Positions 785 to 57,461 of a stretch of 64,000 bases of DNA are shown here, piece after piece; within the stretch, counting starts at the first letter, position 1, and each line of letters begins with the position of its first letter. This stretch comes from Spirodela intermedia (taxonomy: Eukaryota; Streptophyta; Magnoliopsida; Alismatales; Araceae). The DNA lies in the NCBI GenBank assembly GCA_902729315.2, contig LR746276.1, forward strand, positions 5,716,169-5,780,168. The letters are read 5' to 3'. The notes below the pieces were generated by a model. The model did no database searches. It saw only the letters and a program-made list of their open reading frames with translations, and was not told the origin of the DNA. A program made the translations under genes and the position numbers.

Positions 785-1090
785 CTACTTGTCTGGTGGC
801 GGCTTGAATCCGCTATGTCCGGGATTCTTGGGCTTCGGAGACGGAGGCCCATAGTACTGTTTAAACACGGAGAATTTCCCCCTCATCTTTGTTGGAAACT
901 CCGCCATCTCTCTAGCCAGAACCCCTTTATCTCCTGGAGAGCTCGAACGGCAAGGATCAACGGCCGGAGGCATCCTGTAATGAGTTCCGGTGGGGCTCGG
1001 ATGGTCACCTGAGACAACACAGAACAAGCCGTCGAGTATGAGAAGGACAGCGACCGAATTTCGAGCGGTATTAGGTGTTGACCCTTCCAT
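785..1090 (-). CDS. A1: CIF-like secreted peptide precursor, 5'-rearranged
   Basis: Single-exon frame of 101 aa from the ATG at 1090; a further in-frame ATG at 1138 gives 117 aa. Its middle and C-terminus match A3, A4 and A5: PPAVD, SSSPGDKGV, EFPTKMRGKFSVFK, then YYGPPSPKPKNPG and FKPPPDK before the stop. The C-terminus is the most CIF-like of the set (Y-G-x-x-S-P-K-P-K, then F-K-x-x-P), although the residue before the Tyr is Tyr instead of the Asp usual for sulfation. The 5' half of the family signal peptide (MGSS...SLA) and the 5' UTR are deleted. The remaining hydrophobic run VAVLLILDGLFCVVSG is fused to former promoter sequence ('aggtgttgacccttccattga'), which supplies the new ATG. It may still work as a signal peptide, or it may be a 5'-truncated pseudogene. 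Confidence 0.5.
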   Translation of the reverse strand: MEGSTPNTARNSVAVLLILDGLFCVVSGDHPSPTGTHYRMPPAVDPCRSSSPGDKGVLAREMAEFPTKMRGKFSVFKQYYGPPSPKPKNPGHSGFKPPPDK

Positions 1091-2290
1091 TGAGCATGCC
1101 CGCGACGCTTTGTCTCTCCAATTTTTCTCTCCGGACAAATTAATTTCATGAAAACACGTAAAGATTATTATTTTGAAAATAGATTATCATCATTTTTACG
1201 AGCGTTCTCTTTTCAGCACTTTTCATTGTCTACCGCGGTTCGACTTCAATGTCTGGGCAGCGATGAGATGGCAGCTGTTGCCGAGTTTGTCAAATAAAAC
1301 TATGACCAACACGTCAGATGCCGACGAGTCCTCTCTCGCTTCTACTGACAATTACGTACCATCAAGACTCAACAACAACTCCAGGCATGTTGAATTACAA
1401 TCAAAATATTTAAATGGTATTTCTCGTTGTTCATGCGTAAGTGATATACAATTCCTCATTAAATTAAATGAAATAAATATTGATCGATGAAACAAAATTC
1501 TTCAACATGATATCATTAGTGCCTTCAACTTAGAAACATACTTTGTAAATTACGATTGTCATAAAAAGTCGACACATCAAATGGATCAGTTTGACGTCAA
1601 CATAAGCTCACCCGTGTGTTTACCCAACATAAAAGGAAAATACAGAGATCTTTATCTAATACCGATTGTGACCTGTCATTCTCGGGATCAACCGGAGTCA
1701 GGTTTGTAGAGTCATGTGTCGGCGAGTAAACTCCCTACCACTTACACAAGATCAATTAAATTGTTCTAATTAATCAACTAAACTCCTTCTATCATATTGA
1801 TACACCAATATATATATTGCTATAGAATTATCGAGTATTAAACCGTTCACCAATGATCATGTTTCTACTTCAGATAATCTTTATTTTACTATAAAATAAG
1901 AATTTATGGTTATCTTCCCCTAAGCTAATTCCAACATGAACCAGAATATAATGATCAACTCAAGTTCAGGAATGGGAAGAGATCTTTATATGTCACTGTT
2001 ATTTAGAACATACATTCTTTCGTATTGTTCTTCGGAAAGGTTGAGCTATCGATTGCTACAAAAGGTTTTCCTATCCACCCATCCTCACTTGATGGAATTC
2101 TGGTGCCTCTTGCTATATGGTCCGGCTCCTTTATTCCCTCTCCCCCCCTACCAACAAGGCTCGACAGTTTTAAGAATTTGTCCACGGATCAGAAGGCAAA
2201 AGGCAGCGTGAGATTCAATGTATAGCATCTGAGACTTGTTCCCATATTTTTTACATGCCAGAAGAATGTCCTATTTTAAAGTGCAATAGC
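1091..2290 (-). repeat. Family A 5' flank, spacer and B 3' flank, copy 1
   Basis: This stretch runs in the same order as 19270-20750, 38870-40270 and 51300-52790: the 'aaaatagattat' and 'cctcttttcagcac' words, the 'caaattcttcaacatgat' word, 'acatggaccagaatat' and 'gatcagaaggcaaaa' before the B gene. Short frames occur but none keeps coding across copies. I read it as duplicated spacer DNA. Confidence 0.6.
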
Positions 2291-2592
2291 AATGACTCCT
2301 GCCAAGAAACTCAAAAGCATATGTATATAGGAGAGGGGAATGAAGCATGGTACTGTAAATGAGACCCAACGGCTTCCGTGAGAAATAGTCTCTTGGTAAA
2401 CTGATTCTCCCGGAAATAGATGCTCCATTTAAGGGAGCCTATTTCAAAGGGTCCCTCGTGGACCATTTCTAAACGAAACAGACAGGCTAATTTAAGGGCA
2501 GCAATAGCATTTGCTGCAAGAAAAACATCCCAGTGACGTCCCATGACGAGGGGGGAAGAAGGTAGCAGACGGCAGCAAAGAGGCCCATGTTT
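2290..2592 (-). pseudogene. B1: decayed family B precursor
   Basis: The complement of 2590-2592 is ATG, with the family B context (CAT of 'aggcccat', then 'gtttcttctgctagtccttggtgagagggga' on the plus strand, as in B3). The first codons read MGLFAAV and then lose the family frame, giving hydrophilic and aromatic residues and an early TAG near 2490. No donor site like those of B2 and B3 follows. Exon 2 is only faintly visible around 2360-2440. The gene is dead, but it fixes Block I as an A-plus-B unit. Confidence 0.6.
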
Positions 2593-2599
2593 CTTCTGC

Positions 2600-3130
2600 T
2601 AGTCCTTGGTGAGAGGGGATGGCGCGTCGAGCAAGTTCTGCTTTCATAGCTTTCCCTTTCACCGCGTCTTCCAAATTGACGTCTTCGAATGCGTTTATAA
2701 TTACACCAACGGCTCACCAACTAGGACAGGCATGCTGACCTCGCTATCTGCGAAAAGCAGGCTCATTATTTTCTTTTCGCACAATCGGCCTTGACTAATT
2801 GTTTAAAATCTAATAATACAAGATTAATCTTCAGGCCTGGTTTTTACGAAAATGTTATTTATTATTTAATAACGTATATAATTAATTTTTAGTTATATCT
2901 CATTTATTTCCTGAACTTCATTTTCGTTCATTATTTCTTATTTTGGTTTTTAATTTATTTCACCTAGCGATTTTTATGTAACATGTAGGTCTCCATCTTC
3001 GTTAATATCTTAACAGCTCTGTAATTAGTAAGATTAATTATTTTTTCATGATATTAACATATATCTGAGGGACACAAACTAGGTAAACATACAAACATAA
3101 TAATATTTGGTATAATATCTTGGCTTATAA
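2600..3130 (-). repeat. Family B 5' flank, copy 1
   Basis: It shares 'ggcatgctgacctc', 'cgcacaatcggccttgac' and 'tcatgatattaac...cataataat' with 7290-7950, 21230-21700, 40660-41250, 54780-55460 and, in part, 22450-22640. It includes the TATA region of B genes. It holds no gene. Confidence 0.55.
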
Positions 3131-3611
3131 ACGGGGACACCATTCAATAGGGGGACAGAATTGATTGTCATCTCATTCTTTGATATTTTCTAAACAAAAA
3201 TTGTAATTATAAAGAATAATCATCAACAGGAAAAATTTTATCGTTGTTTTTTGGTCCATGTAACCTGCATCTACTCTCCAATGATACCATCCTTGATTTT
3301 ACTAAATCCTTAGATGCAAACATATTAAATTTTGGGGTCTACAACCTACTAGATTTTACAACTCTAGCCTACTCAGATTTCTTAAATGTCTTAAATTCTA
3401 TGGCTCTAAATGGTCAAAACTAGAGAAGCTCACTACTTCTCTCTTCAAGATTCCAGAGTTCTAGGCGGTCAAATTCCAGAGCTCTTTCAGATTCTAATGC
3501 TATAGGAGGCCAAATTAGAGTAGCCTTTTCTTTGACTTCAGGCACACCTTATCTCTCACATTTTAATGTAAATAAGATGGAAGGAGACTACCCAATGGTG
3601 AATATTTCATT
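3131..3611. other. AT-rich intergenic, nothing seen
   Basis: No open frame above about 60 codons, no domain and no clear repeat. Confidence 0.4.
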
Positions 3612-4880
3612 TGATGCTTGATCACGATATAGTGGTGTGAGGAATCGAATTCTTCTTCTTCATCATCACTTTCTTCTTATTCTTCTTTCCTTTGTTGAGA
3701 GGATCAGTAGCAACGGCGTAGTTGATCCCTTTCTTCTTCTCATTCTCGTTCTCCTTTCTCGTCCTGCTCATTCGCCTCTTATTCTGTCCTCGATATCGAA
3801 GGTGAGCGGGGTGGATGATCTTTTCTTTCTCCACAATCTTCTTCTCTTCGCTTCGAGCTTTCTATTCCCATGTAATCAGACGTCTTTCTCTTCGTCTTTC
3901 CTGCAAGAATCAAAGATATTTCTGTAGTCGTTCCCGTACTCTTTATCTTTGATCTATGTTCGTGCATTGTTCTCTTCCCGCCGTTCTCCTCTTGTTTCCG
4001 ATCCAGATCAGAGAGCTTTGTAGTCGTCGTTCTCCTCTGTTTCACGCGAAGATCCAATGGATTTTCTGACGTCATATTCCTCCACTTTCTGGCGAATATC
4101 AGCATGATATTCCGTCGTCGTAATCCTCGTTTTTCCGGTGAAGGTCCGTGATATGTTTTGTCCTCAAACTCTTATTTCCCGTGAAAATCAGCAGCCTTCT
4201 CGTCGTTTGAAAGCTCACTTTTTTTTCCGGTGAAGAACAGCAGCCTTCTCGTCGCCGAGATCTCTCGTTTTTCTAATGAAGAACACCGGTCTTCTCGTCG
4301 TCTAATCTCACGTTTTTCATTTGAAGAACCAGTTGATTTTCGGACTCGTTCTCCTCGACTTTTCGGCCAAGAATAGCTTGATTTCAGTCGTCGAACTCCG
4401 CATTTCTCAGGGGCACTTGACGAGTCGATCTTCATCCGATTTTCAGAGCTCAGGAGAGGGAGGATAGTTCACTTGATGGGTCGTCGAAAATCCTTATACT
4501 TCCGGTGAGAATCACGCGACCGTTCTTCCCCTTGAGTTCCTTCTTTTCCGTCGTGATTTTTCCTCTGTTTATTCCTCGTTCGTCAGGTGATTTCCGTCGT
4601 GATTTCTGTTCTCATTATTCCTCGTGATTTCCGTTTCGATTTTTCTTCCGATTACTCCTTGTTTTCTCGGTGTCTCCGGTTGCGAAGTTTGTTCCGTTTC
4701 TTCCTCGTTTTCCCTTTGTTTCTTCGTCGCGATCCTCCATCCGATTGTCCTCCATCGTCCGTGATTCATCGTCGAGATTTCCGTTCATTTTTCTCTTCAT
4801 TCGTCCCTCAAAGGAGAGAGAAGAGAGAGAAGAGATAGAAGAGAGAGAAAATATATTAATAATCCGGAATAAAATAAGAG
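3612..4880 (+). repeat. Pyrimidine-rich region with degenerate ~55-60 bp tandem repeats
   Basis: The plus strand is strongly C/T biased. Between about 4010 and 4400, phrases such as 'cagccttctcgtcg', 'tctcgtttttc' and 'tgaagaac' recur every 50-70 bases with substitutions. The long frames here on both strands (Arg/Glu/Lys-rich one way, Ser/Phe/Leu-rich the other) are what a CT-rich strand produces and are not credible genes. The tract ends in a purine-rich 'gagagagaagagaga' segment at about 4815-4850. It could be the leader or LTR of a degraded retroelement. Confidence 0.5.
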
Positions 4881-5499
4881 AGAGTAAAGAGCGAATATTC
4901 TCACGATAATCCGTATGAAAATTTTGAAAGAATAATTCGGGGAAATCACTATAAATATTTTCGGATCCTTAATGGCCCGAAAAAGGAATTTTTCTTAAAC
5001 GGGCGAAGATCCTTGTTCAGATTTTGGATCCCTTGTTTAAAGAAATCCTTCTATCCTGGAACCGAAAGTCAGATCCATTATTCCGATAATGGATCCGAAA
5101 CGCCTTTTTATTAGGCCCGCTAAGTTAGTTCATTACGCCTTTTAAATCAGACTCAATAAATAAACCAATTTAGATTTGACATCAGGCCAATAGTCAACTA
5201 AATTCACCTTCAATTTAGGCCCAAAAATTAAATCCATTTTATGTTAAATTCAGGCCAAATACTTAACTTAATTTCTCTGAATTTAAAATAAAATAAATAA
5301 TTATAAAATACATAAAATTTAAAGACCATTATGTAACATAAAATGTTCAAATATAGATGCCGGGTTATTATATCACCTTAAACTTAATTAGAATATTTAA
5401 GATCTTCATGTTAATAAATTATTCAAATTAATTCTTAACGAAATGACTAATCTACCCAATATGTTGTGATTACCATCAAAATACCTATGCCCTATAATC
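4881..5499. other. AT-rich filler, no gene
   Basis: Repeated motifs such as 'aggcc(c)aaa' with 'taaattcaggcc' appear, and no coding potential was found. Confidence 0.4.
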
Positions 5500-5700
5500 C
5501 AAATTCAGGTCCTAACATTGTTTCTCTCTTTTTATTTTCTCCCTTTACCATTAAATTGTTGCCGCTTTATATCACTATTGATAAATCATCGTGTTCTACA
5601 TCATCAATAAATAAATAACATGAGTAGGGATTTACCGAGTCAATGTGACGATTCTCTTCGTCATCTTTGCCAGTGAAAAGACGGCTGGCCTACCAGTGAG
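5500..5700 (-). pseudogene. Deleted family A locus (3' flank only)
   Basis: The sequence follows the family A 3' flank (TCTCTC tract, 'catctttgccagtg', 'ggcctaccagtgaggc' as beside A2) up to where the stop codon should be. At about 5720 it jumps to 'caggcttgctcatttggctgttcag', which in the other blocks lies upstream of the A gene (for example about 19620 and 39190). The coding region and promoter have been removed as one deletion, leaving an A-less Block II. Confidence 0.55.
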
Positions 5701-5719
5701 GCAGCGGGTTGATTATGTC

Positions 5720-6574
5720 AACATATCAGGCTTGCTCATTTGGCTGTTCAGGAAGAGTCAACTGTCCATGCTTCATTTACGCGTAGGAAACTTGACCTCT
5801 GGGTCTTGGGATGACGGACAACCTCGTGGAAACATATGACAGTCAAATTATTTAAAAGGTGTTCGCCATTGATCTTGTGTCAATGACATACTGTGCGTCA
5901 AATCAAATGAAAAAAAAAAGTATCCATGAAGGAAACCAAATTCTTAAACAGGATGTCATCAATGACTTCAAGTTGGATACCTTCCATGTAAAAACGGGAC
6001 GCGTCATAAAAAAAGACACATCAAATTGATCAGTTTTGTTTTAACATAAGCTGCAAAGTGTTTACCCAACTTATGCAAGAAAATGGCGATATCTCATACC
6101 TAGTATCAGTTGTGGCCTGCAATTCTAGAGATTGACTTCAATTGGATATGTGAATGGGTCATGTCTTGGCAGGCTATCGTGTTCCAATTTACACGAGAAC
6201 AACAAAATCTTGATTTCATTCCATCATATTGTACACAGTAAGTAGATGCTCGAAATATAACGCTGTTTAAAATATCTAATGACCCAGTATGTGCATCAAA
6301 TGATCTTCTATTTTACTACATATGTCATATATTTGTGTCCACCCGCCCTAAACGAAACTTAACATGGACCAGAATATGACAAATTCATCTTCGACAATGG
6401 GAGGAGATCTCTCTAACTCCCTGTTGTTTCGGATATGTGCAATCTCTTGTTATTGTTTGAAAAGGATGAGCTAATCCGTGGTTATGGAAGGCTTTCTCGT
6501 CCCTCTCGTGACCTGGTTCCTTCATTCCCTCTCCACCCCTACCAAAGAGGCTTGTCAGTTTTATAACCTCCTAA

Positions 6575-6612
<38 letters not shown>

Positions 6613-6827
6613 GCATCACTGGACAGTTGCAGTTAGCGAGAGACTGAAACATCCGAGTGCATATAAGTTAAAGCGACGACGGATCAGAAGGCAAAAAGAA
6701 GTTTGAGATTCAGCGTATAGTATGCGAGAATTCTTCCCTTATTTCTTACATGCAAGAAGAAGTCACTGTTTCAACGTGGCACGACAGTGAGTCCTATCTT
6801 CTGACTCAGAAGCTAATGATATGTCCA
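5720..6827 (-). repeat. Spacer and B 3' flank, copy 2, with (CT)n
   Basis: The order and words match 39190-40270 closely, for example 'aggaaaccaaattcttaaacaggatgtcat' and 'atatctcatacctagtatcag'. A CT microsatellite at about 6578-6610 lies at the same place as those at 20533-20567 and 40032-40048. 'acatgcaagaagaa' follows just before the B2 stop side. No gene. Confidence 0.65.
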
Positions 6828-7287
6828 TTATACAGGAGGCGGAGGCGGAGGCGAAGGACGGAAAGTCGCCCTGACCGGGTTCGTGTTCGGCGACGGCGGA
6901 CGCCGGTGTTTTCTTGAACGTAGGATTCTCCTCCCCGCTGCAGGAAATTCCGGTGTCTCTTCCTCTGGGCTAAACTTACTACCGGAGACCGTCTCCACCA
7001 TAGCCATGTCGCCGTTAAGGGGAGCTCTTAAGCTCACTCCAACGCCAGTATCTACAGTTTCATGTATACCAAGGTTAGCCGCGTCTGCGGCTCATAAAAG
7101 ATACACATAATGCGAGTTTCCGTGACGGGGAGTAGCTCTGGGGTAGCTTACCTGTGAGAAGGCAGAGGGCGTTCAGAAGGAGAAGTGCGGCAATAGCGGT
7201 CGCTGGGAGAAAAACAGCCCGGCGGAGGGGAAAGAATGCAGCAGAGGAGCTCCTGTTTTTTCTTTGAAATGGGATGGCCTCGGTCAT
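6828..7287 (-). CDS. B2: two-exon family B secreted peptide precursor, start codon altered
   Basis: Exon 1 is 7152-7287 and exon 2 is 6828-7051. Donor CACAG|GTAAGC and acceptor TGTAG|ATACTGG keep the frame (phase 1), giving 119 aa. The signal-peptide core is AAFFPLRRAVFLPATAIAAL continuing LLLNALCLLT. The middle has GDMAMVETVSG and an acidic PEEETPEFP, followed by the basic run RSRKHRR, which precedes PPSPNTNPVRATFRP and a final run of six prolines. The family ATG (as in B3) is AGG here, at 7252-7254. The only upstream in-frame ATG, at 7287, lies just 9 nt below the TATA box at 7296-7302, so it is probably upstream of the transcription start. Splice sites and mature motif are intact, so this is either a very recent loss of function or a gene with an unusual start. 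Confidence 0.6.
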
Positions 7288-7295
7288 GTTTCTGG

Positions 7296-7302
7296 TTTTA
7301 TA
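7296..7302 (-). promoter_or_regulatory. TATA box of B2
   Basis: TATAAAA on the minus strand in the context CTATAAAACC, which is identical upstream of B3 (21263-21269). B5 has CTATAAAAGC. In B3 it sits 53-59 nt before the ATG, a normal distance for a short 5' UTR. Confidence 0.65.
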
Positions 7303-8050
7303 GCTTTTCCCTTTGACCATGTCTTTGATTTGACGGATTCTTACGCGTTTATGACGGCATGCTGATCTCAGGTTTGCGAACAATGGGTCTCTTATTTTAT
7401 GTTCACACGATTGGCCTTTACCAGTTCCTTATAATACATTATATAGGATAAATACTCAAGTTAGCTTTTTCTGAAATGTCATTTTTTAGTGAAGATGGAA
7501 TATAATTGCTTCATCAGTTCATCTCATAAATTTCCTAAACTTTTTTTTTATTCAGCTATTTCTGATTTTGGGTTTCAATTTACTTCATCAAGAGCTGTTA
7601 GGGTAATGTATCCAATGGCATCTTCTCTGATATCCTAATACTTTGAAATGATTAAGTTTAGTTGTTTTGTCATGATATTAACACCCATATGTGAGATAGA
7701 AACTAGGTTAACTTAAAAGCATAATAATCTTTTCCAAAAGCATCCACTAATAACACAGTAGCTAAAAATCATAGGTGGCAGGACATGTAGTCATTACGGA
7801 TGCAATGTTCTTGCCCCATTTTCAATGTCTTGCCAATTTTTTTCGATCAGATAGAATGCTGAGAGAAAGGATTGGATATAGACCAAGCCTAAAAATCACC
7901 AAGATAACTGAAGTTCTGCAGTAATCATGGATCTTGACTAGATCTACTCAATTAAGGAGGATTCAATATATTCATGGGAGAATGGAGGTAACTGATGGCT
8001 TTATTAAAATGGGCTATTATCAATTGGTCAATGTACCATACTGTTTGGAA
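7303..8050 (-). repeat. Family B 5' flank and distal module, copy 2
   Basis: Matches 21270-21960 and 40660-41340 in order: 'gacggcatgctgatctc', 'gatattaacaccatat', 'cataataatctttcc', 'gatctactcaattaa', 'attcatgggag..atggaggtaa'. No gene. Confidence 0.6.
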
Positions 8051-10213
8051 ATAACCTTTTATATACAAGCATTAATTCTTCAACTGCAATGGGATGTACC
8101 TCATTGATCTACATGTAAGACACAAATTTTGGTCATTTTAGATTAGACAGTATCCTTGTTGGAATTTTTTCATATATGCTCTCAAGTTTTCTATATTTTT
8201 TTATTGTACTATAACTTGAAATGCACTTCAATCATTTATATCTAGAGCAGAATGCAACAAGCTAATGACCTTGTCATGAATGGAAATAAAGTCACATCAA
8301 AAATCATCTGTACATTGGTAATTTTTTATTACACTCCAAGAATTATGATCAAAAGCTTTAATAAATACTCGTATGGATTTTCCAATATCTACAATTGTTT
8401 CCATCAAACATAAGAGTATATATTTGTAATGATGTTCAACCCATTCACTTGTTGAAACACTAGTCATTCCTCAATGGTAGTTACTTCCTATGATTTGAGT
8501 TTAGCTCTAATACTAATTATTGGTTCCACTATCACTAGATAATTTAAGAGGGGGGATGAAATAATTTTTAATTTTCTATTTAATTAAGTATAATAAAATC
8601 TCTTTTATTTTATTTTATAAATTAAATATCAATTATATCTTGATATTAATATATAGATATAAAATAAATTAATAAGAGATTGTGTGCAATAAATTTTGAA
8701 AGTGGTTCAATCTAATTCCTTTGACCTACATCAACTTTCAAAGACTCCACCTTAATTCCACTATTCTACCACCTAAATATAACTACCTTATGGGCTTAGC
8801 TTTCCCTTACATGATAGACTCTCAAATCTATGTATCTATATAATAGAGGCCATACTTCTAATGGCCTTCACCTAGGTGTTAGTGCACCACAACTCACTCA
8901 ATATTTAACATATTATTAGTGCTCATTGACTAAGTGCACCATGACACTTTTCAGGTCACCACACATATCATTTGTATGGGGTTTGTGGATGCCCTCAGTG
9001 TTGACACATAGAGAATGTTTAAATACATTTAGTAAAAAAACTAATTTATAAATTATTCTTTGATGAGTCTAAAACATAAGTCATCTATATGCATGATGAT
9101 TATTTTTCATTGTGAGATAAGTTTAATTGATAAACATTCAAATCATATACTTTGATGATGCTCTATGCAATCTATGGCTAACATCGAATTCAATAGTCAT
9201 GCCCTTAAGACACTCTTTTATATTGAAGTAATGCAGCCCAATACTCTCTGAATATATGCACATCATGACAAGGGTTAATACATGTGACGAAGTTTCATGT
9301 ATATTTTGAAAAATCAAAGTCATCAATGAGATTCAAATCCAACACCTGAATAATATGAATAATATAATGTTAGTATAACAAATGTTTTAAATATCAAAGA
9401 CAGATTATGGTAGATATGAGATTTGAGCTCAAGAAGCAACCATAGTGGAAATGAGAAAAATGATAGCCTAATTATTCAATAAAGTATGGGTGCAATTTGA
9501 ATTCAGAGCACTATAACAACAAGTCAAAAATTGATTGAGATATTCAACACAAAAGTATATGATTAGTGACTGAAGCAAGGCTTGAACTCAAAACTTATCA
9601 CACTCTAGATGGTAACACATCGTCAAAATTCATAGACTAAATGATAAGTTCAACGATAATATGTTAACTTGACTTTGAAGACAAGTATGCCTATTGATTA
9701 GTTGAGTGTCTCTAGACACAATATCAAGGATATTATATGATGAAGAGTAAGGTTATCTTTCTCCACTAAGCCCTAAGGTAACTTGGGTGGTGAGGAAAGT
9801 GTAAAGTTAAGGCACAAGGTATTGTGAGCTAGATTTTGTTTGTGAAAGATGTTATTCTTTGAGAAAAACTTTACCCTAAGTTAAGCACATGGTGCCATGA
9901 GTTAAAACTAACTCATAAGGGTTAAATTTATGTGGAGATTGACAATTGTGTTGAAAAAGTTGAGCTAGTGATATTTTTGTTAAACAATTGTGAAAATCCT
10001 GAAGGGAGATCCTCTAGTATTAAACATAGCTCAAGAAAGATGAACTAGTATAAAATATGTGTCTACCATCATTGAGAGTGGGAGAGAAAGAAACTAGAAT
10101 ACTCATGTGACTTAGAGAAAAATTATAAGTGCATACTTCATAAATTGAGTTGGAATGTGTGTCGACACACAAAACACTAATTCACCCCCCTCTTGGTACC
10201 TCACTTAGCCACC
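8051..10213. other. AT-rich repeat debris without genes
   Basis: There is no credible coding frame. Two short motifs resemble the region around the primer-binding site of plant copia elements: 'gctctaatactaatt' at 8503-8517 with 'aagaggggggatgaa' at 8545-8559 (minus orientation), and 'ttcacccccctcttgg' at 10181-10196 (plus orientation). The remainder shows nothing I can name. Confidence 0.4.
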
Positions 10214-11780
10214 CTAAACCTAACATGTCTGGTGTGACCAAATTTTCGTATAATAAATCACATAAATTTAAAATTTATAAAACTAGAAAATATAAATTAT
10301 TATATTTTAAAAAATATTTTAGAATAAATAAATTAATTATAATTTGATATTTTTTTAAAAATAATAGAAAATTTTCAAGTAGATCACATAGATGTAATAT
10401 AATATTAGGTAATATTTGATATTTTTAAAAATAATTTCAGACTAAATATTAAAAAATATATTTAAAATCCACGATAAGAGAAATAAGGGTGTAGACATCA
10501 AGATGATGTTAGTGGCTTAGCAAATGTTAATCAGGTAGAAATAGAGTTTTACTTGACAATTCTTGTGTAAATAATTACAGATGAATAAATTGGTCAAATT
10601 AAGATCTATAAAAGCTAGAATATTCATAATTTAATGAACAATAATTTTGAAACTTGAAATCACACAAAATTTTAGTAAATTAAGTAAAAAATAAGTCAAA
10701 AGTAGAAAAGATAGTGTTTCGACCTAGTGGCAACGATTGCTGAAATTCTGTGTTTAGGAGGCTTATTGAACGATATCTATAGCTTCAAAGGCTCTCCTTA
10801 GACATGGACGATTGAACATTTTCTAGATCTCATTCTAAAGTCCAAAAAATAATAGTAGAAGTTAAACTAATTAAAAATGATAAAACAGAGTTCCAATGTT
10901 ACAATGGTGATGTGTCAGAATCTTGAGCGTTCAAAGAGACTATTGTGTAATGTCTACAGTTTCAAAAACTCTCCTTGAACATGAACAGTGTGAGAATTTC
11001 TAGATCTTCTTGGTCGAGAAATCATCTTTGGTGGCTGTCACCTAGTGGAACAAAAAATAACAACTTTGCGGATCTTTAGTGGCTATCACCCAATAGAGAT
11101 AAGATGGATGGAGGTGGGGCGTGTCTTAAGAAACTTCATCCTTAAGTCTATACAACAAGAGAAAGCTCTTCATCACATTTTATATGCTATCAAAAAGTGG
11201 CGACTCGTCTATTGGCATATCGTTTTTTTCTTCACAATTATTTGTTTATCAATCAATTAGAGATAATTTACTTAATAGATTCATAATTTTTTTATTTAGA
11301 ATCATTCAATAATTTTAGTAATGATGCTTTGCGAACTGCGTTGACTATATTTCTATCGATGATTGAGTAATTCTAGTGGCTTAATTATTGACAAAAAATC
11401 GAAAAAAATCACAATTTAATCAGATAAAAATATGAGTTTTGACTTTAGTGGGATTCAAATCCTTATTGGCCATCCATCTATATAGAAGAGAGTAAAATAA
11501 GTACATGAATATCCTTATAAAGTGACATTATATGGATATCTCATTCTCATAAACAAGGGGTATATTAAGTATTAAAAATATTAAAAATCCTATAGAAAGT
11601 TATGACAGGTGTTTAGTACCACATTGGTTATTTTCCACGTTTTGAGATAGATATATAGTAATATAAGAATGTGTGATCAATAAGCCTTTCTCTTGTGTGT
11701 ATACAATCAGTCCTTACCCCACGCCCAATTAGCCCACCAATGACATGGAATGAGAGCGACACATGTGTCCCTCCTACCGG
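10214..11780 (+). repeat. Left member of a long direct-repeat pair (LTR-like)
   Basis: Words recur in the same order at 15700-17056: 'ataataaatcacataaatttaaaatt...aaactagaaaata', 'aaattaagatctataaaag', 'ggctctccttagacat', 'ggcgactcgtct.ttgg', 'ggattcaaatccttattggcc'. The copies are well diverged. The left copy also has an internal duplication (about 10720-10830 and 10900-11010). Long direct repeats about 5.5 kb apart, same orientation, suggest old LTRs, but I cannot fix the TG/CA ends. Confidence 0.5.
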
Positions 11781-17258: not shown

Positions 17259-17633
17259 TTACGCTGAATGAGGTGGTGGCGGTGCGTGATAGAGTAAAAA
17301 CTTCACTCTGCTCGTGGCAGGGGCGGGTGGCGATGGCTTTGGCCTGCTGCCCAAAGATCTTCTCATCTTCTGGCCATCTGAAAAGACGTCAAACAGCCAT
17401 AGAGACGTCGTCTGCGGGCGAGGTCTCGAGAGTGAGTCAGTCCTGTCTCAAGAAATTCTATAAACCTATGGTGGATGCTCTTTCTTGTTCCAAAGGGCTC
17501 CCAAAGAGAGATGGAAGCAGTGCATGAGCCTGGAAGGGCTTACCGTGAGGAGCAGAAAGCATAGCAGCACCGCGGCACCAGGTTTCATCAGGAAGCGGTG
17601 CACCCTGGCTGAGGCGATGGCCAAGTAAGCCAT
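17259..17633 (-). pseudogene. C1: frameshifted family C secreted peptide precursor
   Basis: Paralogue of C2. Exon 2 (17259-17377, 119 nt, the same length as in C2) is open and ends with KPSPPAPATSRVKFL then LYHAPPPPHSA. Exon 1 (17544-17633) starts MAYLAIASARVHRF and reaches the hydrophobic AAVLLCFLLLT, then meets the donor CACG|GTAAGC. It is 90 nt against 133 nt in C2. The missing 43 nt remove half of the hydrophobic core and change the splice phase from 1 to 0, so exon 2 is read out of frame and stops after four codons. The conserved exon 2 shows the family was once under selection, and the break looks recent. Confidence 0.75.
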
Positions 17634-18420: not shown

Positions 18421-19176
18421 CTAAACTTTTTTACAAGTAGAGACTCTTGGTCTAAAAGGCAACAATATGAACCAGTTAAAAGGGCTTAGGGTGTTTAGTT
18501 TTATTCTCAAAATAGGGTTTTTATTGAAAGAAACTATGATGGTAAAATGGTCTTTGCATTTTTTATCAGTGTAATATTTATTCCATGTGGATAACTTACA
18601 CATAAAGTTTCCCATAAAATTTGAGATTGATGAAAAGATTTTAAGATGGCTTACGCAGAGTAAAATATCGATGACATGGCTTACAGTTAATTTTTTTGTG
18701 ATAGATTGGGTACTCGTGCCAAGATAACTTTGGGAAAATGATGAGGAAGAGAGGAATAAAGCATTGTGTCTCTTCGTCGTCTTGGCCAGTGCAAGCCATC
18801 TGGCTGCCGCGGCGCAGGATAAATCTGACTCGACTGGCCTACCAATGAGGCGGAGGGTTTTGATGGGATCCTTGGATATCGGAGATGGAAGCCCATAATA
18901 TAGTGTCAACACTCGGCATCTCCCCCTAATCTCTGTCGGAAACTCCGCCGTCTCTCTGGTGAGAACCCGTTTATCTCTGGGAGAGCTAGACAGCCAACGA
19001 CCAACGGCCGGAGACATCCTGAAATGAGCTTCGGCAGGGGTTTGACGGGCGCCCGACACAACACAGCCAAAGCCGTCTAAGTATGCGAAAGGCAACGACG
19101 ACCGTTGCGGGGCAAGGGAAACGGGCCGGCGGTGTCTTCCAGTGGCGAGGGGAAGGAAGGTAACCGACGAACCCAC
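18421..19176 (-). pseudogene. A2: family A precursor with damaged signal peptide and lost stop
   Basis: It opens with MGSSVTFLPLATGRHRRPVSLA as in A4, then two small insertions (+2 and +1) shift the frame across about 13 codons, so the hydrophobic ATVVAALLIL is replaced by PQRSSLPFAY. The frame returns at LDGFGCVVSG. The middle matches A3 and A4. The C-terminal motif begins LYYGLPSPISKDP and then shifts, losing the F-x-PPP tail and the stop. Translation would run on through the 3' flank to 18421 (251 aa in all). Poor secretion and a scrambled end make a functional peptide unlikely. Confidence 0.7.
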
Positions 19177-20754: not shown

Positions 20755-21210
20755 TCAGACTCGAAGGCCGATGATATGCCAATTATATAAAAGACGGCGG
20801 CGAAGGAAAGGCGACTTGGACGTGTTCGGTTTCGGCGATGGCGGACGCCGTCCTCTTCTTGAACGTGGGATTCTCCTTTCTGCTGCAGGAAATTTCGGCG
20901 TTTCTTCCTCTGGGCCAAATTTCCTGCCGGAGACCGTCTCCCCCGTATCCATGTCGGCGTTAAGGGGCACTCTTAACCTCACTCCAGCGCCAGTATCTAA
21001 GTTTCATGACTGCCGCGGTTAGCCGTGACTGAGGCTCGTTAAAGACACAGGTAAAGCAAGTTTCCTTTACGGGGATTAGCTCTGGGGTAGTTTACCTGAG
21101 AGAAGGCAGAAGGCGTTCAGAAGGAGAAGGGCGGCAATAGCGGCCGGTGCGAGAAAAACAGCCCGGTGACGTCCCACGGCGAGGGGAAAGAAAGCAGCAG
21201 AGGGGCCCAT
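20755..21210 (-). CDS. B3: two-exon family B secreted peptide precursor, C-terminus frameshifted
   Basis: Exon 1 is 21096-21210 and exon 2 is 20755-20996; donor CTCAG|GTAAAC and acceptor CTTAG|ATACTG match B2, phase 1. The product is 118 aa. It keeps the family ATG: MGPSAAFFPLAVGRHRAVFL, then a hydrophobic core APAAIAALLLLNAFCLLS. The middle carries ETVSGRKFGPEEETPKFP, then the basic RSRRGRR and PPSPKPN. Against B2 and B4, four bases are missing after the Phe codon, so the expected FRPSPP end is replaced by a basic and hydrophobic tail that runs to a stop at 20755-20757. This is the only B gene with start, signal peptide and splice sites all intact, but its mature peptide is altered. It may be non-functional or a changed ligand. 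Confidence 0.65.
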
Positions 21211-21262
21211 GTTTCTTGTGGTAGTCCTCGATGAGAGGGGATGGCGTCGAGCAAGTTTCTGG

Positions 21263-22420: not shown

Positions 22421-22430
22421 ACAATAAGAA

Positions 22431-22764: not shown

Positions 22765-23247
22765 TTATCCTATTATTGGCAGCGGGGAATCAGCGGGCGG
22801 AGAGACGTACGGAGATGGGGAAGGAGATGGGGAAGGAGATGGGGAAGGAGGCATCGAGAAACCTTTCAACGGGTTCTGTATCGGCGACGGAGGAGACAGG
22901 CCTGGCCTTGTTCTCAGGGACCTCCGACTCGACCATCCGAAGAACTCAGCCAGCTCCCCGCCCCCACCAAGGTTCCTGCCGCCGAATTCCCACAAGCCCA
23001 CGCCCCCATCTGAACTTCTTTCTAAACTTCGTGGAACGTCGCGATTAATAGGGCTCAAAGCTATCGAGCCAGAGAGAGAGAAAGATAGGCTAGAAGCAGG
23101 CAGTGGAAGCTCCGGTCGCCCAGCTGAAGTACCCCAGAGAAAGCAGCAGAAGCTGTGGAGGAGGAGGCCGGTTACGGCTGTTCCCGCCAAGAAAGCAGCC
23201 ACGCGATGTCTAACGGCAGCGGGGAGGAAGCTGGCCGGCGAGCCCAT
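22765..23247 (-). CDS. D1: large CIF-like secreted peptide precursor with Ser-Pro repeats
   Basis: Single exon, 160 aa. The start MGSPASFLPAAVRHRVAAFL aligns with family A and B starts, followed by a hydrophobic core and FCCFLWG, giving a likely signal peptide. The middle (residues 40-105) includes a Gly-rich stretch and LAEFFGWSSRRSLRTR, placed like the EFP...R-rich stretch of A and B. Then comes SPPSPIQNPLKGFSMPPSP, matching PPSP-x-x-NP-(V/L)-(R/K)-x-x-F of B2, and a tail of Ser-Pro repeats partly encoded by three 12-bp units at 22811-22846. SP repeats are usual arabinogalactan attachment sites. The frame is intact and GC-rich, with no sign of decay. It is unusual in length and tail within the set. 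I infer an apoplastic signalling or AGP-like peptide. Confidence 0.65.
   Translation of the reverse strand: MGSPASFLPAAVRHRVAAFLAGTAVTGLLLHSFCCFLWGTSAGRPELPLPASSLSFSLSGSIALSPINRDVPRSLERSSDGGVGLWEFGGRNLGGGGELAEFFGWSSRRSLRTRPGLSPPSPIQNPLKGFSMPPSPSPSPSPSPSPYVSPPADSPLPIIG
22811..22846 (-). repeat. Three tandem 12-bp units inside D1
   Basis: ggagatggggaa three times without change. On the minus strand it adds Ser-Pro pairs to the D1 tail, so copy number would change tail length in frame. Confidence 0.85.
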
Positions 23248-34998: not shown

Positions 34999-35440
34999 TT
35001 ATGCTGAAGGAGGCGGCGGCGGCGCTTGGTAGACCAGAGACTTCACTTTGTTCGTGGCAGGGGCGGGCGGTGATGGCTTTGGCTTGCTGCCCAAAGACCT
35101 TCTCATCTTCTCGCCACCTGAAGAGACATCAAATACCGCATAGAGACGTTGTCTGAGGGCGAGCATGGGCAAAGAAATCCGGGCTCGAAAATGAGGTCAG
35201 TTCTCTCTCAAGAAATCCTACAAACAGATGGTGGATGATCCTTCTTGTTCCAAAGGGGTTCCAGAGAGAGAGGTAAACAGTACAGGAGCCTGAAGGGGAG
35301 GGCTTACCTTGGGACATTGCAGCCCCAGAAATTACCGAGAGCGCGAGGAGGAGAACGATGAAGCATAGCAGCACCGCGGCACCAGCTTTTGCCGGGAAGC
35401 GGTCGATCCTGGCAGAGGAGGCAACCGCCAAGTCAGCCAT
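34999..35440 (-). CDS. C2: intact family C secreted peptide precursor
   Basis: Exon 1 is 35308-35440 (133 nt) and exon 2 is 34999-35117 (119 nt). Donor CCAAG|GTAAGC and acceptor CTTCAG|GTGGCG join in phase 1, giving 83 aa. Residues 1-19 (MADLAVASSARIDRFPAKA) are polar and basic. Then GAAVLLCFIVLLLALSVISG forms a strong signal-peptide core. After it come MSQGGEKMRRSLGSKPKPSP, PAPATNKVKSLVYQAP and a PPPPSA end. Basic RR at about residue 50 is a possible processing site. N-(K/P)-V-(K/R)..(Y/F)(Q/R)..PPPPP aligns loosely with the end of B2. Codon use is GC-rich. No lesion is visible. C1 is its broken copy. The function is unknown; I infer an apoplastic signal peptide. Confidence 0.7.
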
Positions 35441-38406: not shown

Positions 38407-38757
38407 CTACCTGAGAGGCGGCGGGCTGAAAAATTGGCTGATGGGGTTCTTGGATATCGGAGACGGCGGCCGATAATGTACTTTCAACACTCGGAATCTC
38501 GCCCTCATCTCTGTCCGATACTCCCCCATCTCTCTAGCCTGAACCCCTTTAGCTCCGGGAGAGCTCGAATGCCAACGATCAACGGCCGGAGGAGTCATGT
38601 GACGAGTTTCAGTTTCAACGGGAGTCGGACGGGAACCTGAGACGAAGCAGCAGAAGCCGTCGAGAATGAGAAAGGCAGCGACGAGTGTTGTGGCTAGGGA
38701 AACGGGCAGGCGGTGTCTTCCACGGGCGAGGGGAAAGAACGCAGCAGACGAGCCCAT
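38407..38757 (-). CDS. A3: intact family A CIF-like secreted peptide precursor
   Basis: Single exon, 116 aa, from the family ATG at 38757. Residues 1-41 form a signal peptide: MGSSAAFFPLARGRHRLPVS, then LATTLVAAFLILDGFCCFVSG. The middle holds TPPAVDRWHSSSPGAKGV and the conserved EMGEYRTEMRARFRVLKV. The C-terminus is HYRPPSPISKNPISQFFSPP then PLR, giving PPSP-x3-NP-x4-F-x-PPP. The Gly after Tyr is Arg here. Basic residues before the motif suggest proteolytic release of a ~20-residue peptide. Upstream lie a TATAAA box and two W-box motifs. Start, core and motif are all intact, and it is duplicated as A4. The CIF-like label rests on spacing and a few residues; an IDA-like or novel class is possible. 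Confidence 0.75.
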   Translation of the reverse strand: MGSSAAFFPLARGRHRLPVSLATTLVAAFLILDGFCCFVSGSRPTPVETETRHMTPPAVDRWHSSSPGAKGVQAREMGEYRTEMRARFRVLKVHYRPPSPISKNPISQFFSPPPLR

Positions 38758-41439: not shown

Positions 41440-42010
41440 GGTGGTAGCTGTTAAGTTACCTGCTGGATTATGTAATTTTCCTATGTTGCACCCGTGGGAT
41501 GACTGTGACAAGGTTAGTGTAGAGGCATTCAGGTATCATAGTATCTCATTCTTTCATGATACTGTAAAATCATACTAAAGTCCTGTTTAGTTTTGGTAAA
41601 TATATAAGCTTCATTTTCAATACTAAAATCCTATCCTTTTGATTTTCCATCTGTGACATGCCTTTCGACGTTTGATCAGTTAGAATATGAGCCGATTTTG
41701 ACGCCTCTATAGATCGTCATCTTAGAGGGTGAACTCATCAAACTTCCAACAGGAAATACTTTGATGGAGGAAGAAAATATGATCGATGCCATTATCTTCC
41801 TTTAAAGAAAACAAGAAGAACCACGCTCGTCGGCCACCATTTCCAGCGAGTTGTCCAGGCCGCAAATGTCGCTCTCGAGTAAGAACCCGTCGACGTCCAA
41901 GAAGCATAGATCCAGTCGAAGCTTCAAGATGCAGAAACTTGCTTGAAGACAGACCTGACACTGAAGGTCAACAGCTGATCCACTGCTGGCCAGCTAAGTG
42001 CGAACCCGTC
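41440..42010 (+). repeat. Unknown module J, copy 2
   Basis: It shares 'tagaatatgagccgattttgacgc' and 'cttccaacaggaaatactttgatggagg' with 22240-22420 and 47120-47230. The plus frame is broken by stops. The segment continues with 'aagaagaaccacgctcgtcgg', which is shared with 47250-47290. Confidence 0.5.
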
Positions 42011-47009: not shown

Positions 47010-47260
47010 TCATGCGAAACCCCTCTCAAGTTTTGGTAAATTTACATAGTTTAATTTTCATACCAAGATGCTATCTTTTCAATTTTCTATCTCCGGCATG
47101 TCTATTCACGTATGATCAATTAGAATATGAGCCGATTTCATCGCATCCACATATCTTCATCATAAAGGGAGAACCCATCAACCTTCCTACAGTGAATTCC
47201 TTGGTGGAGGAAGAAAATGTGGTCGATGCCATTCTCTTCCTCGAAGTAAAATAAGAAGAA
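47010..47260 (+). repeat. Unknown module J, copy 3, open frame
   Basis: An 80-codon plus frame contains CLFTYDQLEYEPI, IKGEPINLPTVN and LVEEENVVDAILFLE. It is the best-preserved copy of a segment seen three times. I do not recognise the protein. Confidence 0.45.
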
Positions 47261-47449
47261 CTACATGCTCGTCGGTCACCTTTCCCGGGAATTAGCTGGG
47301 CCGCAAATGTCGTCGCACACGAATAATAACCTTTCAACGTTTAAAAAGAATGGAACCGCTTGAAGCTTAAAAATGCAGAAACCGGCTTGAAGACAGACCT
47401 GGCACTGAAGGCTAATAGCTGAACCACTCTTCGCCAGCCACATTCTTGG

Positions 47450-50852: not shown

Positions 50853-51197
50853 CTACCCGTTAACCGTCGGTGAGGTGTTCAGGGGGGGCGAGGATACCGG
50901 AGATGGAGGCCCATAATATACTTTTAAAACTCGGAATCTCTCCCTCATCTCTGTCGGAAACTCCGCCATCACTCTGGTCGGAACCCCTTCAGCTCCGAGA
51001 TAGCTTGAACGCCAACGATCAACGACAGGAGGCCTCCTGTAACGAGTTTCAGTTTCGACGGGGGTTAGACGGGCACCTGAGACAACGCAGCAAATGCCGT
51101 CGAGTATGAGAAGGGCAGCGACGACTGTTGCGGCGAGGGAAACAGGCCGACGGTCTCTTCCAACGGTGAGGGGAAAAAACGTAGCAGAAGAACCCAT
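50853..51197 (-). CDS. A4: intact family A CIF-like secreted peptide precursor
   Basis: Single exon, 114 aa from the family ATG at 51197. An in-frame ATG at 51251 exists only because AAG became ATG in this copy, so I prefer the conserved start. Signal peptide MGSSATFFPLTVGRDRRPVS then LAATVVAALLILDGICCVVSG. The middle matches A3 (VVDRWRSS, AEFPTEMRERFRVLKV). The C-terminus YYGPPSPVSSPPLNTSPTVNG keeps YYGPPSP but lacks the Phe and PPP end of A1 and A3, so the tail has drifted or specialised. It lies 12.44 kb from A3 in a tandem duplication. Confidence 0.75.
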   Translation of the reverse strand: MGSSATFFPLTVGRDRRPVSLAATVVAALLILDGICCVVSGARLTPVETETRYRRPPVVDRWRSSYLGAEGVPTRVMAEFPTEMRERFRVLKVYYGPPSPVSSPPLNTSPTVNG

Positions 51198-51323: not shown

Positions 51324-51329
51324 TGACTT

Positions 51330-52790: not shown

Positions 52791-54203
52791 TTCTAGCTTG
52801 AGGTAGTACCTGACGGGAGGGAATTGCTCAAACTGAGGCTCCTATCCATTGAATAAAGAAACAAGGCAAAATAGAACAAAGATAAAAACCCTCAATTTGT
52901 TTCATTTGAAGCTGGTATTTATACATGAGTTTCTACACATGTTGAGTAACCTAAGACGCCTCTTCAAGATGCGTTGTGAATTTTTAACAGCCATTTTAGA
53001 GATTAAGAAAGATAAACAAGAGGAAAGAGGTTTAGTGGATGTGTCTGCTAATTGATAATCAGAATAATCTCAAAGAAGTTTAATGGCGTCATTGATAAAT
53101 TTCTCACAGATGAAAGGGCAGTCAATCTTGATGTGCTTGGTCTACTCATAAAAGGTAGGATTTGAGGTAGTGCTATAAAAGTCATATATGAATGTTGATA
53201 TAAAAGTCATATATTTATTTTTGGATCTAAATAATTGTGATACTTGCAACATCTAATACATGGTATTCAACTTCGGCAGCTGAGTAGGAGATAGTTGATC
53301 GCCTCTTTTCCTTCTATGAGATAAGAGAATCACCAAGAGAGGTACAAAAACCAGCAACTAATTTTCAAGAATCAGCACATGTTGTTCAATCTGCATCAGA
53401 GAAAGTTTCAAGTTTTAGAGGAGATAAAATTAAAAATAAAATGCTTTACCTGGGGGGGGGGGATTTCAAGTAGCAAAGGAGGTGGATGTACTGCATGTAA
53501 ATGGGGGAGTCAAGGTTAGGCCATAAACTTAGTCTATGCGCTTCAAATATAATATCAGGGTGTGAAAGTGTCAAGTATGATAGAATACCAATCAGTCAAT
53601 GATATTGAGGAACATCTTCGAGTAATGGTCCAAGCGTAGCACTGAGTTTTAAGTCCAGATCTATCGGAGTTAAAGTCAGTTTGGATATGAGAAAACTAGT
53701 CTTATAATAATTATAAATCATAATCTCTTTCAGATAATATAAATGCTTTCAGTAGAATGTGTAATTTCTAGTCCCAAAAAGTATCTTAGAGATCAAATAT
53801 CTTTGATTTTAAACTGGACGTGTATGATAATTTTCAAAAAATGATCAGTAAGAGAAATAGATGGCATTGATAAAATGATGTCATCCACACAAACCAGTAA
53901 ATTAATAAAGGTAGAATCATGTCCTTTGATAAATAACGAATAATCACATTCAAATTGAGAAAATATATGATGAAGTAATGAAGTGACCTGGAATGTCATT
54001 ATCTCAAAGATCGACAAAGTTCATGAATAGATTTGTGTAGCTTGCAAACTATTTTACTGTTTTAATTGAGGCTCCTACCTGTGGAAGAAGGAAATGGGGC
54101 ACAATATAATAGAGAGAAAGCTCTCGATTCATTTCATCTAAAAGTTGGTATCAATACATGAATTTACACGTGTTTCCACACACGTGGAGTAACTTAAGAA
54201 GAA
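52783..54203 (-). mobile_element. Short Ty1/copia insertion in the B5 3' flank
   Basis: About 1.4 kb. The minus frame at 53793-54017 has LLVCVDDIILS, the copia RT catalytic motif (YVDD with Cys for Tyr) and following residues. Terminal segments are similar to each other: 'gaggctcctatcc...ttcattt...gagtttctacacatgttgagtaacctaaga' near 52830-52955 and 'gaggctcctacctg...ttcattt...acacgtggagtaacttaaga' near 54068-54198. GAATTAT flanks both sides (52777-52783 and 54198-54204). The family B 3' flank is split between these points, so it landed after the block duplication. The TG...CA ends are not clear. A run of 11 G is at 53452-53462. Confidence 0.65.
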
Positions 54204-54779: not shown

Positions 54780-55680
54780 ATAGCACTGCCCCTTCCCTGC
54801 GACTATGAAATTAGCAGGTCCTATACGCTTGCAATCGCATTGGCAGCCACGTTGGGGGTCTCACCAACTATGACGAGTATGCTGATCTGACTATTGGCGA
54901 AAAATGGGTCTCATCTTTTGTGTTCGCACGATCTGCCTTGACTAATTGTTTATGACCGAACAATATAATATAATATTCAAGTTAGCTTTTTACTGAAATA
55001 TCATTTATTAGTGAAGAACAAAAATAGTTACTTCATCATTTCATCTCGTCTATTTTCTGGGCTTTATTTTTTCAGATAATTACGATTTATTTCATCAGGA
55101 GCTTTATGTATAACATGTCAGACGCCATTTTATATGATGTCCTCACAGCTCATTAATGTCATATTAACTACTTTGCCATCATATTAACAAACGTACGCAG
55201 CATAAAAATTAGGTAAACATAAAACATAATAATCTTTCCCATAATCATCCACAAATAATGCAGCAGCTAAGGATTCTTGGTTGTAGGACACGTCCTCATT
55301 AGGTACCTAGTGTTCTCACCTAATTTTCAACATCTCACCAAAATTTTCTTCAATCAAATAGAACAATGGGAAAAGGATTGAAAACAGCGCAAACATAAAA
55401 ATCATTTAAGATAACCAAAGTTTTGATTTAATCATGGATCTCAACTAGATATACTGAATTAAAGGATCATTTGATATATTAGTGGGCTAATGGAGGTAAG
55501 TGCAGACTCTTTGTAACTAAAAAAAAAGAAATATTTCACCGTTTAAATATTAAAGTGTATTCACCTATTACATAATTTTCCTATGCCACACCTTGGGGAT
55601 GGTTGTCAAATGGTTAGCTTGGAGGCATTCAGTTATCATAGTATCTCATTATTATATAATATTATTTTAATTATTTTTAG
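54780..55680 (-). repeat. Family B 5' flank and start of module J, copy 5
   Basis: Collinear with 40660-41560, ending with 'ataattttcctatgccacacc.tgggatgg' and 'ggaggcattcag.tatcatagtatctcat' as at 41480-41550. No gene. Confidence 0.55.
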
Positions 55681-56689
55681 AGATAAATATAAAATTATGA
55701 TATCTTTAGTCGGCAGTTTTCTGAAGAGCCCCTGCAAACAATTAAAATAAACGATTTCACATCGTATAGAATACTGTAGCTCATGCATTGTAAACTACTT
55801 GTGCCAAAAGATCATTGCAACTATTCAGATAACCGTAGATGTTATTGATGGAAAGTTTTTGTCGTATTGGCTGAAAATATTATGAAAACATCTTTTTCAT
55901 TGATCTTGAGTCTAAAAATTTCATGGACGATGGCCCATCAACTTTTATTAAGGTTTCAAGTCTTAAGGCCTAATTCATTTGACAAATTATCAGATAGAAT
56001 GTACTGAATCCAATACAAACCTTTATCAAGGTGCTTAATAGCACTACAATATTACTTTAAAAGGCATGGATGTAGACAAAAATATGGGAATACTTCAAAA
56101 CATTGGTTGAAAGTGAAGTCCTAAGAGCCAAGAGTTAATCATCATTTGCGAATCTCCCACGGAAACAGGATGAATGAAAAGTATTACCGCAGAAAACCAA
56201 AAAAAAAATGTGCTCGTAGGCTTTGAAATTTTTTAGAGCTTTTGTGGCAGATTGGGTACTTGTTTCAAGAGTGTTCTTGTTTCCTCTTCTTACACAGCAG
56301 AAGTATGATGCAAACTATACCACGAGAGAGAAAAAGGGAGAAAAAGGCAAGAATAGGGAACGCATGGAATGAATTTTATATGCAAGCTACTCCTCCTAGT
56401 CTTGCTTCTATTTACTTTATCTACAACACTTGATTATACATATCGAATTATTTTTCATGGGTTAAATCCTTTACTAAGTAGTATACAAAAGAGCCAAAAA
56501 ATGACTTTTTATCTCAAACTATGGTGAGGTCTTTTTTGCAAAGGATAGTATACACTGTCAACAGCATGGAAAAAGTAATACTATGATGGTATAAGATATC
56601 AATTTTATCAATATTAACCATTACTAGTTTAAAAATTAACATAGACTAAGGCAAAAGACTATAATATTTTAAATATTTCTCCTCAAGGA
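55681..56689. other. Intergenic, no gene seen
   Basis: A 63-codon frame at 56242-56433 has no recognised feature. Parts resemble 37700-37990 ('gggttaaatcctttact.agtatacaaa'). Confidence 0.4.
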
Positions 56690-57116
56690 TCTAATTCGGA
56701 ACTGTGTACTGAAGAGCTTAAGCGTTGATCATTATCTGGTTTCACTCTCTTTCTTCATTCCCTTTACCATCGTCAAATTGTTGTCACTTCATGGTTACTT
56801 GATTGCGAATAGGAACAAAGAATCAATGAACAGTATTAGGAGAGCAATAAAAAAGGCGCATATTGGCTTTTAGTTTTGCTAATCGTCTTGTGACAGATCG
56901 GGTATTATTGTTAAGGGAAGTTTAGGAACATGATGATCAAAAGAGGAAGTTTTTAGGGATATTGGCTATTATTCAGTAAATAAACCACTGTGTTCTACAT
57001 CAATAAGAAATAAGAAACATGACAGGGCGGCAGCAGGCCGCTGTGACCATTCTCTTAGTCGTCTTTGCCGATGCAAACCGTCGGTGGCGGCGCAGGATAA
57101 AGCGTAGTCGACCGGC
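56690..57116 (-). repeat. Family A 3' flank module, copy 6
   Basis: Matches 430-784 and 38010-38400 up to the A5 stop. Confidence 0.6.
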
Positions 57117-57461
57117 CTAGTTGGCAGGCGGTGGGCTGAGAGCTTGATGAGAGGAGGGAATCATATGCGGAGACGGAGGCCCATAATTTACTTTCAACAC
57201 ACGGAATCCCCCCCTCATCCCTGTCGGAAATTCCACCATATCTCGGACCAGAACCCCTTTAGCTCCGACAGAGCTTGAACGCGAACGATTGACGGGCGGA
57301 GGCATCCTGTAACGAGTTTCGGCGGGGGTTGGACGGGCACTTGAGACAACGCAGCAAAAGCCGTCTAGTATGAGAAAGGCAGCGACGACCGTTGCGGCGA
57401 GGGAAACGGACCGGCGGTGTCTTGTAACGGCGAGGGGAGAGAAGGTAACAGAGGAGCCCAT
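57117..57461 (-). CDS. A5: intact family A CIF-like secreted peptide precursor
   Basis: Single exon, 114 aa from the family ATG at 57461; an upstream in-frame ATG at 57530 is outside the conserved region. Signal peptide MGSSVTFSPLAVTRHRRSVS then LAATVVAAFLILDGFCCVVSS. The middle has TRYRMPPPVNRSRSSSVGAK and MVEFPTGMRGGFRVLKV. The C-terminus is NYGPPSPHMIPSSHQALSPP then PAN, which ends in Asn as many plant peptide hormones do; Leu replaces the Phe. Similarity to the other A promoters stops about 20 nt upstream of the ATG, so the TATA and W-boxes of the family are missing and expression may differ. Confidence 0.7.
   Translation of the reverse strand: MGSSVTFSPLAVTRHRRSVSLAATVVAAFLILDGFCCVVSSARPTPAETRYRMPPPVNRSRSSSVGAKGVLVRDMVEFPTGMRGGFRVLKVNYGPPSPHMIPSSHQALSPPPAN

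Follow-up and report, generated by a model that had tools for sequence, protein, structure and literature searches.

A tandem array of small genes on contig C13

A 64,000-nucleotide stretch of the Spirodela intermedia genome (136.5 Mb in 32 contigs), running from position 5716169 to 5780168 of contig LR746276.1 (C13 hereafter) and called the window below, carries a tandem array of small genes predicted to encode secreted peptide precursors. Comparison of the window with itself, at the protein and DNA levels, revealed 13 loci between window positions 785 and 57461, all on the minus strand and falling into four related groups (A to D). The first-pass annotation of this DNA had counted five, five, two and one loci for the four groups, all on the minus strand, and our counts agree (its C and D probably correspond to our D and C, respectively). 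Open frames remain at eight of these loci: A1, A3, A4, A5, B1, C1, D2 and, with an altered C-terminus, B2. The loci, in window coordinates, are as follows.

785..1090, minus: A1, open single-exon frame of 101 residues; lacks the usual A start and has SVFK where others have RVLK
2488..2697, minus: B0, DNA-level remnant of a degenerate B exon 1, with no frame; DNA 75.7% identical to 21127-21319, protein match only at an expectation value (E) of 0.13
7152..7287, minus: B1 exon 1, hydrophobic start, followed by a 100-base phase-1 intron (splice model)
6828..7051, minus: B1 exon 2, acidic stretch, RRIL, PPSP and a basic proline-rich C-terminus
17532..17633, minus: D1 exon 1, no longer in frame with exon 2 owing to a deletion
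17262..17378, minus: D1 exon 2, itself open within the broken copy
18817..19176, minus: A2, decayed A copy with GTG at the homologous start, a scrambled hydrophobic part and a run-on C-terminus
21096..21210, minus: B2 exon 1 (splice model)
20755..20996, minus: B2 exon 2, C-terminus altered by a 4-base deletion; RRIP replaces RRxL
23133..23247, minus: C1 exon 1, followed by a 123-base phase-1 intron
22765..23009, minus: C1 exon 2, RRSL, PPSP and an SPSP-rich C-terminus; the intron is also open in frame
35308..35440, minus: D2 exon 1, followed by a 190-base phase-1 intron
34999..35117, minus: D2 exon 2, RRSL, PSPPAP and a basic C-terminus
38407..38757, minus: A3, open single-exon frame of 116 residues
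40279..40600, minus: B3, broken; lacks exon 1 and the acceptor and has an internal frameshift
50853..51197, minus: A4, open single-exon frame of 114 residues
54305..54794, minus: B4, broken by several stops
57117..57461, minus: A5, open single-exon frame of 114 residues; upstream DNA differs from that of other A copies

In the self-comparison, the repeat blocks of the window share 66-85% DNA identity. Two stretches show the order D-A-B, one from 17.1 to 21.1 kb and the other from 34.8 to 40.6 kb (72.9% and 74.2% DNA identity). Pieces of A-B are also found at 50.1-54.6 kb. The conserved block order proposed in the first-pass annotation is thereby confirmed, and the "module" that it had included is probably a repeat of about 200 bases, seen beside B and C loci at 22236-22446, 41632-41833 and 47064-47276 (79-81% identity).

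The array is real and is larger than first described. On C13 it spans about 177 kb, reaching beyond the window on both sides, with plus-strand members upstream. Genome-wide searches, with one A, one E and one D protein as the queries, placed clear members only at C13 5.625-5.803 Mb and at 4.74 Mb of C11. As only top candidates receive a score in such searches, the member counts are lower bounds. Four weak matches elsewhere (E of 0.23-5.8) were taken by eye for chance, and the search with the D protein gave two further weak ones outside the array (E of 0.53 and 0.74). Beyond the window the array also includes A6, A7, one fragment of an A copy, D3, D4, D5 (seen as two exon pieces), C2 (with an internal stop), E1, E2 and a broken E3. 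Overall, eight of 25 copies are broken, with D5 set apart and the C11 copy of B0 left out of the count.

The segment C11:4733314-4750054 (16.7 kb) duplicates window positions 1-15493 plus 1.2 kb upstream. The two copies differ at 365 of 16662 aligned bases (2.2%), most densely at window 9.8-12.8 kb, and the near-identical C11 copy of A1, named A8, has two differences in 306 bases. The C11 copy of B1 is named BC11.

Outside the peptide blocks, a 2-kb repeat occurs at 43032-45091 and 61328-63373 (72% identity). Near it lie a Ty3 capsid-like piece (45695-46054, E of 7.7e-4) and an RVT_2-like piece (53796-53999, E of 0.0036), and a 96-residue frame at 32617-32904 on the minus strand weakly matches Neurochondrin (E of 0.003); all three matches are below the cut-off.

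Precursor anatomy and a candidate processing site

At the level of sequence, the groups are related beyond chance. Protein matches among the A copies have E of 2.9e-22 to 8.9e-45; B1 exon 1 matches A4 at 2.3e-6 and C matches A3 at 3.3e-5. The C-terminal 40 or so residues of B1, BC11, C1, E1 and E2 align mutually at p = 0.002, the floor of the 500 shuffles used for these C-terminal tests, and D2 reaches the same floor against B1, BC11 and C1. A and B1 C-termini align at p of 0.002-0.036, and results for A against C1 or E1 were mixed. The comparisons of A with D2 were mostly not significant (p of 0.03-0.5), nor were those of D2 with E2 (p of 0.21-0.40). The invariant C-terminal columns in an alignment of 11 members, D2 left out, are E, P, S, P and P.

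Seven open copies (B1, B2, BC11, C1, D2, D3 and D4) can be modelled with two exons, joined by a phase-1 splice of the form G/GT...AG/ (slashes marking the exon borders) directly after the hydrophobic stretch and then reading in frame to the stop, with introns of 99-190 bases. C2 has the same joint but runs into a stop, and a like joint was seen by eye in E1 and E2. Among these splice sites, the donor of C1 (GTACTT) and the acceptor of E1 are weak. Group A genes have a single exon. An intron of only about 45 bases at the place of the B donor was considered for them and rejected, as A5 has AAGT for AGGT, A3 lacks the AG, and both frames are open. A TATA box was found at -150 to -30 in four of 14 genes, against 12.6% of random places, and AATAAA within 300 bases in four of 14.

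The precursors are 83-119 residues long. Judged by hydropathy only, all ten proteins examined have a 15-residue stretch in the start region with a mean value of 2.1-3.4; in these ten the middle carries a net charge of -5 to +4 and the C-terminus is basic (isoelectric point 9.7-12.0). The C-termini of 15 copies carry net charges of +2 to +13, and none contains a cysteine or the dipeptide DY. Two features named in the first-pass annotation proved to be less general than stated. The acidic-to-basic middle holds for B, C and E but not for A, which has no acidic segment (-1 to +4), or for D2 (0), and the PPSP-type C-terminal motif is exact in 11 of the 15 open C-termini, with variants in A7 (PLSP), D2 and D3 (PSPPAP) and D4 (a further variant).

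An RxxL or RxLx site lies 8-11 residues before the PPSP-like motif in 13 of 15 open copies. It takes the form RRxL 11 residues before PPSP in B1, BC11, C1, E1 and E2, RRxL 9 residues before the equivalent place in D2-D4, and RVLK 8 residues before that place in A3-A7. None of 20000 shuffles yielded RRxL in all of B1, C1, D2, E1 and E2. Sites of this type are reported to be cut by SBT6.1/S1P and SBT3.5 in RALF23, GLV1 and PROSCOOP12 (PMC13082318, PMC4983112). The site is the strongest pointer to the mechanism, with cleavage predicted from the motif and its spacing.

The reading that we favour, with roughly even confidence, is that the array encodes a fast-turnover family of secreted prepropeptides similar to those of PROSCOOP and RALF23, cut by a subtilase to give a C-terminal peptide that acts extracellularly. 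The hydrophobic start would bring the precursor into the secretory pathway, and an S1P/SBT6.1- or SBT3.5-type subtilase would cut at RRxL (B, C, D and E) or RVLK (A). This would release a C-terminal peptide of about 20-50 residues, PPSP-like, basic, proline-rich and cysteine-free, whose prolines may be hydroxylated. The peptide would act outside the cell, most likely as a defence or stress signal perceived by a leucine-rich-repeat receptor kinase.

The charge pattern also suggests that the mature peptides could be cationic proline-rich antimicrobials, the acidic segment masking the basic C-terminus until cleavage, with microbes and not a plant receptor as their target. The B and E C-termini fit such a role (+9 to +13, 15-32% proline, preceded by an acidic segment), but those of A and D carry only +2 to +6 and A has no acidic segment at all. 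The genome does contain 93 MiAMP1 matches, 88 of them over the curated cut-off, and an expansion of this family in duckweeds has been reported (PMC9828482). However, the likeness to insect proline-rich peptides is putative, and the fixed spacing of the RxxL site fits hormone precursors as well. We consider an antimicrobial function unlikely. The MiAMP1 matches are spread over C4 and other contigs, and many lie in a tandem cluster at C4:1.39-1.96 Mb, where runs of identical scores may reflect recent or assembly duplicates.

Signs of constraint and of decay

Several observations weigh against the array being a set of functional hormone-like precursors. Five of the 13 window loci are either broken or degenerate, namely A2, B0, B3, B4 and D1. 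The ratio of non-synonymous to synonymous substitution rates (dN/dS) over the whole frame of the five group A copies A3-A7 is 0.90 (0.64-1.29), and the A coding sequence is no more conserved than its flanks. The D3/D4 pair has a dN/dS of 1.43, and B1 differs from BC11 by 12 replacement changes and one silent change. The putative processing site is absent from its place in A1 (SVFK), in its copy A8 and in B2 (RRIP), and RxxL occurs in non-hormone proteins too. The splice joints were picked by us from the alignment so that the models read in frame. We also set the substitution rates and base frequencies of the neutral simulation described next.

Other measures point to some constraint. In a substitution-only neutral simulation on the A3-A7 tree, all five copies stayed stop-free in 18 of 2000 runs. 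Of 12 gap runs in the coding sequence, 10 are multiples of three, whereas the 3' flanks have 3 such runs among 26 (six pairs of four A copies). The D2/D3 pair has a dN/dS of 0.25. Further pairwise values are 0.48 for D2/D4, 0.31 for A1/A8 and 1.59 for A6/A7. Within A3-A7, dN/dS is 0.60 for the hydrophobic start, 0.94 for the middle, 0.45 for the core from RVLK to PPSP and 1.9 for the tail, and only the tail interval (1.06-3.67) leaves out 1. Diversifying selection on the A tail was not retained as a result: the value falls to 1.19 when A1 is added, and the tail alignment of 18 columns is uncertain.

Could the array be a decaying or near-neutral remnant family, duplicated together with its surroundings, whose open frames are mostly left over? 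The five broken window loci and the altered one, the near-neutral dN/dS of group A with flanks as conserved as the coding sequence, and the loss in A1 and A5 of the upstream DNA common to the other A copies would all be expected of such a family. The C13/C11 duplicate agrees with it as well, in that the two changes in the 306 bases of A1 are reached or undercut by 13% of windows in the duplicate; B exon 2 has 10 changes in 223 bases against a block mean of 2.2%, and these changes are too few for selection to be read from the duplicate. However, neutral evolution seldom kept the five A copies stop-free in the simulation, coding gaps mostly keep the frame, and the spacing between RxxL and PPSP is kept across diverged groups, which makes a mere remnant quite unlikely in our view. 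We read these patterns as suggesting weak constraint on the scaffold and a free tail, a picture that is compatible with drift.

The first-pass interpretation is thus partly supported. Its multi-group array of secreted peptides, a prediction from sequence, agrees with the anatomy of the precursors and with frames that stay open beyond neutral expectation. Random substitution patterns, which it had named as evidence against such a family, are partly found in group A.

Relation to known peptide families and possible significance

Of the known peptide families tested, none was matched by the array, and the comparisons do not demonstrate membership in any of them. The best Pfam matches (E of 0.2 and 0.44) are below the cut-off, with nothing above chance; this test is a weak one, as the genome's own CIF protein also goes without a Pfam match. 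A6, the only array protein used as a query against the PDB, gave a chance match (E of 0.78), and no description of the family appeared among the literature matches listed. Within this scope, the suggestion that the family is undescribed stands.

CIF peptides required closer comparison. The genome has a canonical CIF gene at C6:1982565-1984250 on the minus strand, with three exons by eye and the C-terminal peptide DYGRYDPSPTFVKPPFKLIPN, which matches CIF2 in PDB entry 6s6q (E of 4.5e-4). Six of 12 array C-termini align to this CIF with a shuffle p < 0.05, the most among the 19 peptides compared, of which it is also the longest; IDA, CEP, PIP, CLE (except CLE18), PEP and systemin lay outside this computed comparison. 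The YG..SP of group A peptides also occurs in CIF1 and CIF2 as tabulated in PMC11534595, and the genome's CIF precursor, like group A, has RVLK before the peptide. One could thus imagine the array as a derived CIF branch without the sulphated tyrosine, perhaps antagonising the GSO/SGN3 receptors or serving as a decoy for them. However, CIF is a DY-type peptide and DY occurs in none of the 15 array C-termini (EY precedes the motif in A6 only), the CIF gene stands apart on C6 with three exons against one or two in the array, and a genome search with its exon, up to an E of 10, recovers nothing but the exon itself. Profiles gave p of 0.28 for the whole family, 0.068 for A and 0.018 for B/E against the CIF C-terminus; the best value, 0.005 for a piece of the CIF propeptide, is one of 44 and is not convincing after correction. 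We did not accept CIF membership, and a derived branch of this kind appears very unlikely.

PSY membership was rejected. PSY1 and A1 have YG.PS..PK in common (shuffle p of 0.041), but the DY of PSY peptides, which goes with a conserved core of the AN..HDP type, is absent from all 15 C-termini and the PSY1 profile gave p of 0.19-0.71.

In its build and behaviour the array appears closest to PROSCOOP. S-x-S is the core of the SCOOP motif. It is present in only two of the 15 array C-termini (B2 and C1), PPSP being the motif of the array instead, and PROSCOOP motifs reportedly do not lie at the very C-terminus. PROSCOOPs are described in PMC6382344 as tandemly clustered genes of two or three exons encoding proteins of 72-117 residues with a signal peptide and no cysteine, with divergent motifs rich in P, S and R, local duplication and restriction to one plant family, and many are reported to have RxLx/RxxL sites (PMC13082318). 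The array shares the tandem clustering, the hydrophobic start, the cysteine-free C-terminus and, except in single-exon group A, the two exons. PROSCOOPs belong to Brassicaceae and have MIK2 as receptor, whereas the array comes from a monocot-like genome.

RALFs are cysteine-rich, in contrast to the 15 cysteine-free array C-termini. The likeness to RALF23 lies in the processing site, RRIL directly before the mature peptide (PMC13082318), which is of the type found in the array. A likeness by description links the array to orphan small secreted proteins such as poplar RISP, which is presented in PMC3975113 as a species-restricted small secreted defence protein that carries a signal peptide and lacks homologues elsewhere among plants; RISP adjoins LRR-RLP genes.

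The array may represent an independent, fast-evolving SCOOP-like phytocytokine system, in which subtilases would release proline-rich ligands with variable tails to be read by receptor kinases, in a monocot lineage reportedly lacking EDS1; we put this forward tentatively and hold it to be doubtful. Loss of EDS1 and expansion of MiAMP1 and antimicrobial proteins have been reported in duckweeds (PMC9828482). Our search for EDS1_EP gave no match in the genome, a result that shows little because all 14 control genomes gave none either.

Among the literature matches listed, the known clade-restricted phytocytokine array is PROSCOOP of Brassicaceae. If the proposal is correct, a parallel array in a small aquatic monocot would mean that systems of this kind emerge repeatedly and are missed by annotation and by family models. 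It would also provide defined peptides for tests on plants that are easily grown and easily treated, and would raise the question of which receptor kinases read these peptides in a lineage reported to lack the immune hub EDS1 (PMC9828482).

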